NCBI RefSeq assembly: GCF_002028545.1
Contig: NZ_MWPQ01000037.1
Span: 1-41,528 of the forward strand
From: Nitrobacter vulgaris
Lineage (GTDB): Bacteria > Pseudomonadota > Alphaproteobacteria > Rhizobiales > Xanthobacteraceae
Length of the DNA: 41,528 nt
Direction: 5' to 3'
Each line of letters begins with the position of its first letter. The stretch's first letter is position 1. A program made the position numbers and the translations under genes. This document shows, in pieces, positions 15,528 through 17,573 of the stretch. The notes under the pieces were generated by a model. The model saw only the letters and a program-made list of their open reading frames with translations. It had not been told where the DNA came from and did no database searches.

Positions 15528-16076
15528 ATGCTTCGCATCGAGGGCTATGTCATCGTGTCGGCGGACGGAATGCTCGCCGATGCGAGCCATGTGATGCCGC
15601 AAGCGCTGAAATTCAGGGGCGATCTTGAGTTTTTCACCGCAGGACTGGATCATGCGGACGTCGTCGTTCATGGACGCAATTCGTTCGAGGATCAGCCCAA
15701 CTCGCCGCTGCGCAAAAGGGTTAGACTAACCCGCCGCGTAGCCGCTCTTGAACGTGATCCCGAAAACGAAAAGGCTACCTTATGGAATCCCGCTGGCGCG
15801 TCGTTCGAGGACGCCTGCGCTCATGCCGGAGTGCGCGACGGAGTGGCCGCGATCATCGGTGGACCTTCAGTATTCGAAATGTTTCTCGATCGTTATGATA
15901 CGTTCTGGCTGTCGGAAGCTCCGCACGTGAGGTTACCCGGAGGCGAAGGCTGCTTTCCCGGCGTCCCCGATAGTTCTCCTCAAGCTGTGTTGGCGGCACA
16001 TGGACTTCAGCCTAGCGAGGTCCGGATTCTCGATGCGGAGAACGACGTTCGCGTTACAGCATGGCGCCGCGTTTGA
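15528..16076 (+). CDS. RibD C-terminal/dihydrofolate reductase-like protein
   Basis: 182 residues with GGAAAGG just before the ATG. IEGYVIVSADGMLAD at the start, VVVHGRNSFE in the middle and AAIIGGPSVFEMFLDRYDTF later follow the DHFR/RibD-C fold, with the GGPSVF nucleotide-binding loop. The middle loop (QPNSPLRKRVRLTRR) is unlike typical RibD. It is probably an NAD(P)H-dependent reductase of a pterin- or pyrimidine-like substrate, but the substrate is unknown. It lies 23 bases after the deacetylase gene, so it could be co-transcribed without a functional link. Confidence 0.8.
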   Translation: MLRIEGYVIVSADGMLADASHVMPQALKFRGDLEFFTAGLDHADVVVHGRNSFEDQPNSPLRKRVRLTRRVAALERDPENEKATLWNPAGASFEDACAHAGVRDGVAAIIGGPSVFEMFLDRYDTFWLSEAPHVRLPGGEGCFPGVPDSSPQAVLAAHGLQPSEVRILDAENDVRVTAWRRV

Positions 16077-16303
16077 CAGAGTAGATTTCCCGCAAGACGC
16101 TTCATCCTCTCAGTGGCCGGGCTTGTCTAACATTACGGAGGAGCTGCCGTTATCATAGCGGACCCGGCTACTGTATTGGAGAGTCCGGCACCTTATTGGA
16201 GGAAAGCGAACAGCGCGAACAATCTCTAATTGAGGCTCAAGTTAGGATTATCTACCATCTGGCTCGATAGTTAGAGATCATTCGCCTCTTGAAGGGATAG
16301 AAA

Positions 16304-16618
16304 ATGAATCCAGCCATGCAGATGATGATGCCCATGATGGGCGGCGCGGCGCCCATGATGATGAATGGCATGATGCCGATGGGCGGCATGATGCCAATGA
16401 ACGGTATGATGGCGATGCCGACCATGATGTGCCAGATGACTTGCACAATGACGGCCAATGGCATGACTTGCGAGATGACACCCATGGACGCGTCGATGAA
16501 GGACATGTTCATGCAGTGCTGCCAAAACATGATGAACATGGCGAACAACGGCATGCCCATGATGATGTGTTGCGGCGGGATGGCGATGATGTGCGTCATG
16601 CCGGCCAAGGCAGCCTGA
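16304..16618 (+). CDS. Methionine- and cysteine-rich small protein
   Basis: 104 residues with 40 Met (38%) and 8 Cys (43, 47, 56, 72, 73, 89, 90, 97). Residues 1-42 are Met/Gly/Pro/Asn repeats (MMPMGGMMPMNGMM). Residues 43-97 add paired and spaced Cys (MMCQMTCTM, MTCEM, QCCQ, MMMCCGG, MMCVM). There is no signal peptide, and only two Lys and three acidic residues. An AAGGGA ribosome site lies 8 bases before the ATG, and a strong terminator follows 28 bases after the stop. Met and Cys thioethers and thiols bind Cu(I) or other soft metals, so metal sequestration is inferred. Antisense frames give His-rich or Ile-rich shadows. I recall similar unnamed rhizobial proteins but no characterised family. 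Confidence 0.8.
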   Translation: MNPAMQMMMPMMGGAAPMMMNGMMPMGGMMPMNGMMAMPTMMCQMTCTMTANGMTCEMTPMDASMKDMFMQCCQNMMNMANNGMPMMMCCGGMAMMCVMPAKAA

Positions 16619-16645
16619 CGATATCGAACGGTCCGGTTGAGTTCG

Positions 16646-16680
16646 AACAAGGGCTGGCTGATCCTGCCCTTGTTTTTGTT
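16646..16680 (+). terminator. Rho-independent terminator after the Met-rich gene
   Basis: AACAAGGGC (16646-16654) pairs perfectly with GCCCTTGTT (16666-16674) over an 11-base loop, and the 3' arm continues into TTTGTTT. This confirms that the plus strand is the transcribed strand for the Met-rich ORF. Confidence 0.88.
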
Positions 16681-16728
16681 TCAGGCTGGGCGAGTGGTGG
16701 CCGTAAATATCGCGGGGTTGTGCCAGCG

Positions 16729-17355
16729 TCAGCCGATCATCTGCGCATAGGTCATCACGAGATACAGAACTGCCTCGTCTGTGCCGAGATTGCGGTATGC
16801 GTGCGGAACGTCCGCCTCGAACAGCATGGCGTCTCCCTCTCTCAGAGTCGTTGGCCGCGCCGATCCGACGGCGATTTCGACAGACCCTTTGGCAACGACC
16901 AGATTCTCGCGTGTCCCTGCCGCATGAGCTTCGGCGTTTTCGCAATAGAGTGGAGCGAGCCGGAGTTCATAGAACTCAGTTCGTCGTTCGCTATCGAACG
17001 GAAACAGAGCCCGGGAGGTGAACTGTCCCTGATTGGATGACAACAGTTTCGATCCATCGCGCCGCAGAACGATGATTCCTTCGGGATTGCCAATGGCGAT
17101 CAGGCTAGCGAACGGAACGGTGAGCGAGGTGCATATTTTCCAAAGCAGACCGATGGTCGGCGTGCTCTTGCCCGTTTCGATCTGGCCAAGCATAGCGCGG
17201 CTCACGCCCGATTGCTTGGCCAACCGCTCAAGCGACAAGCCTTGCCGTAACCGGATGCGGCGCAAATTCTTTCCGACAATCACCGGCAGTTCAATGCAAT
17301 CCAGACCGCCTCCATCGCCTTGATGGTAAATCTGGCTCGTGTCTAGTTTGCTCAT
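16729..17355 (-). CDS. XRE-family regulator with C-terminal cupin domain
   Basis: 208 residues from ATG 17355. A helix-turn-helix (about 28-85: VGKNLRRIRLRQGLSLERLA, then KQSGVSRAMLGQIETGKSTP) is followed by a cupin barrel (about 130-205: EAHAAGTRENLVVAKGSVEI, LREGDAMLFEADVPHAYRN). Such proteins repress or activate nearby genes in response to a small ligand, often an amino acid, polyamine or antibiotic. The start is chosen because its ATG overlaps the TGA of the upstream small ORF (ATGA), implying translational coupling; an earlier ATG at 17400 is possible. It converges on the Met-rich gene. Confidence 0.88.
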   Translation of the reverse strand: MSKLDTSQIYHQGDGGGLDCIELPVIVGKNLRRIRLRQGLSLERLAKQSGVSRAMLGQIETGKSTPTIGLLWKICTSLTVPFASLIAIGNPEGIIVLRRDGSKLLSSNQGQFTSRALFPFDSERRTEFYELRLAPLYCENAEAHAAGTRENLVVAKGSVEIAVGSARPTTLREGDAMLFEADVPHAYRNLGTDEAVLYLVMTYAQMIG

Positions 17356-17573
17356 GCGATGATCGGGCTGGACTCCGTAGATCTGGGCCTTGATATCCAT
17401 GTTTGGAACCCAACGAAGACGACAGGCACCGTCAGCCACATAAACGGAAGAACGAACGGGATGTTGAATTGGCTGGCCGATGACAGACCACAAGCCTCTC
17501 CGGATTTCGCTGCGCGCCTGCGCCGCTCCAGATAAGGTTGAAAATCAATGATAGCGGCACTGCTTTTTCCCAC
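17352..17573 (-). CDS. Putative small single-pass membrane protein coupled to the regulator
   Basis: 73 residues from a GTG start. The N-terminus (MGKSSAAIIDFQPYLERRRR) has the IIDFxxYxxRR pattern seen in several short rhizobial proteins. It is followed by one hydrophobic stretch (FNIPFVLPFMWLTVPVVFVG) and a short polar tail. Its TGA overlaps the ATG of the XRE-cupin gene, as expected for a coupled two-gene operon. The ribosome site is weak and no homologue is recognised with certainty. If it is real, a membrane protein is made with its regulator. Confidence 0.45.
   Translation of the reverse strand: MGKSSAAIIDFQPYLERRRRAAKSGEACGLSSASQFNIPFVLPFMWLTVPVVFVGFQTWISRPRSTESSPIIA

Follow-up and report, generated by a model that had tools for sequence, protein, structure and literature searches.

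The window analysed here is a 41,528-nucleotide stretch of a Nitrobacter vulgaris contig, and it contains a gene at 16304-16618 on the forward strand whose 104-residue product is dominated by methionine (40 Met and eight Cys, the latter at positions 43, 47, 56, 72, 73, 89, 90 and 97). Its frame holds 40 in-frame ATG codons versus two and none in the other two forward frames, and elsewhere in the window the richest 100-codon stretch of the six frames has 15 Met. An earlier note, made from the sequence alone, had the coordinates, frame and composition right, and its division of the protein into a Met/Gly/Pro first part and a Cys-patterned second part is borne out: residues 1-42 form a Met/Pro/Gly/Asn part and residues 43-97 a Cys-patterned core. 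By inspection, the first charged residue is E57, no positive charge precedes K66 and no signal peptide is visible (as the note had also said), so the protein is probably cytoplasmic. It contains no His.

The note took the gene for a real transcription unit, and both of the signals it named are confirmed. A ribosome binding site (AAGGGA, read from the sequence) lies at 16292-16297 on the forward strand, and a terminator hairpin followed by a U-run (stem 16645-16675, forward strand) stands between the gene and its convergent neighbour. Folding of 16640-16682 gave -17.3 kcal/mol (z -3.98), with none of 200 shuffles as good; a consensus terminator scanner found no terminators and did not list this hairpin. 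A reverse-strand ORF over the same bases as the gene (16252-16650) was taken to be a shadow because the excess of synonymous change is in the sense frame. Just upstream of the gene, at 15528-16076 on the forward strand, is a DHFR-like protein (21.4 bits, below the Pfam cut-off of 25).

The convergent neighbour, at 16729-17355 on the reverse strand (208 aa from the ATG at 17355), encodes an XRE-cupin regulator, with an XRE-type HTH and then a cupin domain, both above cut-off (HTH_3 49.9 bits, cut-off 23; Cupin_2 41.5 bits, cut-off 27.2). Its nearest PDB chain is 1Y9Q (E 2e-20), which was crystallised with D-methionine according to PMC7901475. The same source portrays proteins of this XRE-cupin type as repressors that act locally on adjacent metabolic genes and bind palindromes. 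A small ORF of 73 aa (17352-17573, reverse strand), which reads IIDFQPYLERRR and then a hydrophobic stretch, precedes the regulator, and its stop overlaps the regulator's start as ATGA.

The Met/Cys-rich ORF is a real, conserved gene of the Nitrobacter genome. A genome-contig scan found ten loci in nine genomes (two loci coming from one Bradyrhizobium), the hosts being Afipia, N. winogradskyi, Bradyrhizobium, Rhodopseudomonas and Mesorhizobium loti. Profile searches of family, order, class and phylum samples, which overlap, found the gene in 18/391 genomes of the family (8/47 genera; 3/9 in the window's genus), 10/397 of the order, 2/385 of the class (the window's genome among them) and 8/269 of the phylum, two of the last being weak and lacking ORF support. 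These two (G1187 and G1358) have no Met-rich ORF and were not counted as homologues. Four genomes of another family of the phylum (f233) encode proteins of 168-171 residues in which the core occurs twice as a tandem duplication, the second core sharing 52% identity with the profile over 62 columns. Within the order, the gene is scattered patchily over several families, a pattern that loss or transfer would produce. Plasmids searched with the Met protein as query gave no match, but this was a false negative (BLAST masks low complexity), because starting from the regulator led to two Rhizobium plasmids that carry the gene. Regarding phage carriage, 91 pattern matches in viral contigs gave no confirmed case.

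The earlier note knew of no matching family, and searches agree. The window protein matched no NCBIfam family at E <= 0.1 and no Pfam family at 1e-3, 17 homologues gave only sub-threshold Pfam matches (GATase_3, best E 0.037, in 10/17, and TreT_GT1), and a sequence search with the homologues found no PDB match at E <= 10. A structure model was too poor for a fold search (mean pLDDT 46.5). Literature searches, which left most subscription papers outside their reach, found no description of such a family. The Met/Cys-rich proteins appear to be an undescribed family.

To describe conservation, we used an alignment of the 17 homologues (including the window protein), scoring Met positions over the other 16 rows. 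C47, C56, C72 and C90 are invariant in 17/17 homologues; C73 is present in 16/17, C43 in 15/17, C97 in 13/17 and C89 in 4/17. Outside these rows, C72 is lost in two loci that keep C73 (L082 and L086), C90 is lost in a third (L087), and the duplicated f233 proteins are missing the CC pair from their first core. In the first part of the protein, window Met residues are identical in a mean of 0.77 of the other rows versus 0.47 for the remaining ones; core values are 0.92 for Met, 0.59 for other residues and 0.84 for Cys. The expectation that Cys spacing is kept more than Met runs is thus half right: four Cys are invariant and the Met-rich part varies in length, but core Met is as conserved as Cys, and C72 and C90 are lost beyond the 17 rows. 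Slippage in ATG repeats, which the earlier note thought could inflate Met, is not the chief source of the Met content, because Met positions are the more conserved ones in both parts.

The note had also allowed for non-coding drift. Comparison of the core with the N. winogradskyi copy instead gave pS 0.35 and pN 0.013 (over all pairs in the core, pN/pS is 0.42, uncorrected), and purifying selection acts on the gene. A non-coding or slippage artefact is ruled out by the start, frame and composition kept in homologues and by pS far exceeding pN. Met and Cys make up 41-51% of residues in each of the 17 homologues (70-132 aa long), 50-52% in three Rhizobium proteins and 47-52% in the four f233 proteins; over all 24 homologues counted, the share stays at 41-52% while lengths span 70 to 171 residues. 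Given the Cys pattern, the pN/pS values and a sulfur share that stays within this range despite length variation, what is kept is both the pattern of the core and the proportion of Met plus Cys.

The gene has a dedicated XRE-cupin regulator, which the earlier note did not link to it. The two lie tail to tail in 24/26 genomes and, with five more loci from the contig scan, the regulator is convergent in 29/31 loci. The exceptions are L074 (G077), whose genome has no close regulator, and L080 (G125), where the regulator is elsewhere, beside a sulfate ABC transporter. The stop-to-stop gap is 42-177 nt in 28 measured loci; the longest is in L031, whose regulator frame runs into an early stop. L031 and L032 both lie in a single Bradyrhizobium genome, which carries the module twice, one copy having this early stop. 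Among the 391 family genomes, 17 have both genes, each gene stands alone in one genome and 372 have neither (p 1.4e-27 by Fisher's test, with no correction for kinship), counting regulators above 250 bits (18/391 genomes; a 19th, in G344, has only 136 bits). In 61 relatives, the gene and regulator occur together in 5/5, and in f233 a 51%-identical XRE-cupin protein is convergent in 3/4 loci, the fourth being cut by a contig end. Annotated relatives on Mesorhizobium and Rhizobium plasmids have, in L161-L163, the order small ORF, regulator, convergent Met/Cys gene and, in L164, the regulator and the Met/Cys gene. In these four, the Met/Cys gene is annotated as hypothetical or, in L162, unannotated on that strand; the L161 copy lacks the Met-rich tail. 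The small ORF's counterpart is annotated as a gene on Rhizobium and Mesorhizobium plasmids, and in a simple pattern search 21/29 regulator loci had a similar frame (60-100 residues, ID-x3-YR-x-RR and a hydrophobic tail) that lies ahead of the regulator and either overlaps it or comes close to touching it.

Such tight pairing, the position-specific conservation of the core and the third small gene overlapping the regulator would all suit a protein that acts as the regulator's effector or co-sensor. Its core would bind a sulfur metabolite or a partner (e.g., the small ORF's product) and tune sulfur uptake, and the high Met content would make the protein's synthesis itself a report of Met supply. 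However, this leaves unexplained why Met is kept in the variable tail while other residues change, and why f233 has a duplication that doubles the sulfur load, so we consider it an unlikely explanation.

Upstream alignment of homologue loci revealed palindromes of the form TCC-N3-AT-N3-GGA. In the window, an operator-like palindrome (O1, TCTAACATTACGGA) at 16126-16139, 171 nt before the start codon, has one mismatch to the TCC-N8-GGA consensus. A weak operator-like site (O2) lies 20 bp from it at 16146-16159, with a score of 8.2 (the control rate is 0.20 per kb at score 8), and a half-conserved site (O3, ...TTATTGGA) at 16187-16200 forms the start of a conserved TTATTGGAGGAAAGCGA element; in Rhizobium, the O3 position holds a full palindrome. 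Allowing up to one mismatch, 13/24 target loci have a site before the Met/Cys gene, and 16/21 sites in 406 kb stand there, versus five sites in 352 kb of controls; allowing up to two, 20/28 loci have a site between -190 and -150 and 7/28 have a third near -113. The number of sites in target loci is no test, because the motif was derived from these sequences. Outside the training set, three Rhizobium loci show them at -172/-173, at -152/-153 and at -110 to -112; their scores are 7.1-15.4, and some are weak. These sites are absent upstream of the duplicated f233 homologues. The conserved palindromes stand before the Met/Cys gene, the regulator's neighbour, and are candidate binding sites for the regulator.

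The regulator's promoters have a site at score >= 8 in 4/29 loci and a good one in only one or two (that of L087 is strong). Searching 18 genomes for twin operators gave 28 matches versus 17 for a reversed control and no clear regulon; nine of the 18 show a site before the Met/Cys gene, and none of the 28 matches is in the window's genome. One further consensus-like site pair (L137) precedes an amino-acid-type ABC binding protein, and the remaining matches are not interpretable. Another XRE-family gene frame lies near TCC-N8-GGA sites in G142 (L140). A translated leader peptide near -110 was rejected because, in Bradyrhizobium-type loci and in Rhizobium, the element turned out to be another palindrome, the third. 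Right after the third site, GGAGGAAAGCGA (16198-16209) is kept in many loci at a distance of about 107 nt from the start, and the palindrome does not explain it. An Rfam search of ten loci for an upstream riboswitch gave one sub-threshold snoRNA match, inside the gene region of L043.

Genes for sulfur acquisition are over-represented around the Met/Cys gene, though not in the window itself. We compared 213 target genes (>= 120 aa, within 5.5 kb, 24 loci) with 222 of 226 control genes from 22 regions of the same genomes, mostly 60-100 kb away (four very long proteins were left out). NMT1, the SsuA/TauA-type binding protein family, was found in 18/213 neighbour versus at most 3/222 control genes (p = 5e-4), the control figure being an upper bound as NMT1 is not among the 25 families listed, and the transport permease PF00528 in 24/213 versus at most 8/222 (p 0.003). 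Among the target families listed were Cys_Met_Meta_PP (4), nitrogenase-like (4), Rhodanese (3), MetQ-type lipoprotein (3) and SATase_N (2). NCBIfam named TauA in L081 and L088, SsuA in L070 and L076 (above cut-off) and L069 (below), Xsc in L070 and an NtaA/DmoA monooxygenase in L067. L082 has CBS-like and cystathionine-lyase-like enzymes below equivalog cut-offs; the protein tested in L072 is a nickel/peptide-type binding protein, and that tested in L084 matched no NCBIfam family. Nitrogenase-like gene clusters adjoin the Met/Cys gene in L085 and L086, and the L085 subunit matches PDB 9fmg (E 1e-175), whose entry says Nitrogenase and which we take to be methylthio-alkane reductase.

A sulfur marker, seeded from these proteins, occurs in 19/24 target versus 3/22 control loci. 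In seedless loci only, the figures are 10/15 versus 3/22 (p 0.0015), with two of the ten being close kin of seed loci. Of the 24 target neighbourhoods examined, those of the window, L066, L072, L084 and L089 have no marker. Regulators apart from the Met/Cys gene were found in similar surroundings: one without it (L133) adjoins cysE, cysK, MetQ and MetY, one without it adjacent (L134) is by a sulfate ABC transporter, and a distant regulator (L135) adjoins genes reading, by eye, like sulfate adenylyltransferase and APS kinase. On annotated Rhizobium plasmids, tauA and msuE are a few kb away, with a flavin monooxygenase also a neighbour.

This context bears on the soft-metal handling that the earlier note proposed. 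Met and Cys are Cu(I) ligands, so the conserved Cys, four to five in number, might with the help of Met buffer Cu(I), Ag or Hg in the cytoplasm. The invariance of C47, C56, C72 and C90 favours this, and a low-confidence model has a hairpin (45-50 and 53-58) with C47 on one strand and C56 on the other, C72/C73 falling in the next helix. However, the neighbourhoods are sulfur-related and give the idea no contextual support. Copper-export and multicopper-oxidase motifs occur in none of 344 called neighbour genes, which is weak evidence because the P-type ATPase motif is also absent from 295 control genes. The lack of His and the losses of C72 and C90 count against a metal buffer as well, and XRE-cupin proteins are described (PMC7901475) as metabolic repressors, not metal sensors. 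It is possible that the Cys core binds metal, but we consider a metal buffer improbable as the protein's role.

A sacrificial oxidant sink, in which Met is oxidised to the sulfoxide and recycled by Msr enzymes, would account for the high Met density and has a precedent in the methionine-rich peptide MrpX/BcrX (PMC8315932). A gene with an MsrB-like motif lies about 1.2 kb away in one Mesorhizobium loti locus (L084), but by motif regex this is the only one of the 344 neighbour genes with an MsrB motif, and MsrA and MsrP motifs occur in none. Since there is also no visible signal peptide, the regulator is of a different type, and it is the N-terminal Met part that varies while the Cys core is kept, we judge an oxidant sink to be slightly less likely than the metal buffer.

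The protein's link to sulfur is well supported, and it very probably serves sulfur homeostasis of some kind. The D-methionine in the regulator's solved relative, together with the sulfur context, leads us to read it as a cytoplasmic protein that, under regulation, acts as a sink or store for Met and Cys, a mechanism to which we give a little under an even chance. Its own regulator and frequent sulfur-nutrition neighbours would perhaps make it a sulfur reserve rather than a metal binder. A ribosome-made cytoplasmic protein would hold reduced sulfur in a small conserved-Cys core and a variable Met/Pro/Gly/Asn tail. The regulator, whose cupin domain probably binds methionine or another sulfur metabolite, would control the gene from two or three upstream palindromic operators; the protein would be made when reduced sulfur is plentiful, and proteolysis would recover its residues when sulfur is short. 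In its fullest form (a dedicated bacterial sulfur reserve, about half Met and Cys, under a methionine-sensing XRE-cupin switch and broken down on sulfur starvation), we find the idea doubtful. A pure composition store needs no position-specific core, and the conserved core looks like a fold or ligand site. Also against a reserve are the window's own neighbourhood and that of L066, which lack the marker, the twin-operator search with no clear regulon, the rarity of good sites at the regulator's own promoter and the f233 homologues without upstream sites.

We know of no bacterial protein for sulfur banking, and our literature searches found no paper on such a reserve protein and hence no precedent. 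Bacteria are reported to spare sulfur under starvation by avoiding Met- and Cys-rich proteins (PMC8557817). One that instead concentrates these residues and has a regulator to itself would suggest that sulfur is being banked and, if this is true, the protein would be the sulfur counterpart of cyanophycin, which serves nitrogen. Should it be a Cu(I) buffer or oxidant sink instead, the family would still be an undescribed one, and its regulator an unusual one. The pair is directly open to genetics, with a single regulator, a single target and candidate operators, and homologues are present in culturable rhizobia and in R. palustris.

Several known systems resemble parts of this one. MrpX/BcrX (yedYZ-mrpX, bcrXQP) is likewise a small Met-dominated bacterial protein with a dedicated regulator (PMC8315932). 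Those peptides carry MXKDX repeats and are associated with reductases of the MsrPQ type and with an ECF sigma factor; the title of reference 39 in PMC8315932 calls MrpX periplasmic. However, the window protein lacks the MXKDX repeat (KD occurs only once), has no visible signal peptide by inspection and is paired with an XRE-cupin regulator, and no MsrP motif occurs in the 344 neighbour genes. Csp copper-storage proteins and metallothioneins are Cys-containing small cytoplasmic proteins, as the Met/Cys-rich protein would be by inspection. Here, however, Met dominates rather than Cys, there is no dense CXC array, and the 17 homologues matched neither family in Pfam at cut-off nor in the PDB at E <= 10. 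Plant seed storage proteins have a far lower share of Met. The sulfur-rich ones do keep sulfur as Met and Cys in protein (sulfur storage in maize seed is the subject of PMC3420316), and the comparison is solely one of how they work. The XRE-cupin local repressors PauR, PsdR and ErfA, along with 1Y9Q, share HTH_3 plus Cupin_2 and pairing with a neighbouring gene, and palindromes that may be binding sites lie near it here, but the partner is convergent, and the presumed target is a Met/Cys-rich protein instead of an enzyme or transporter.
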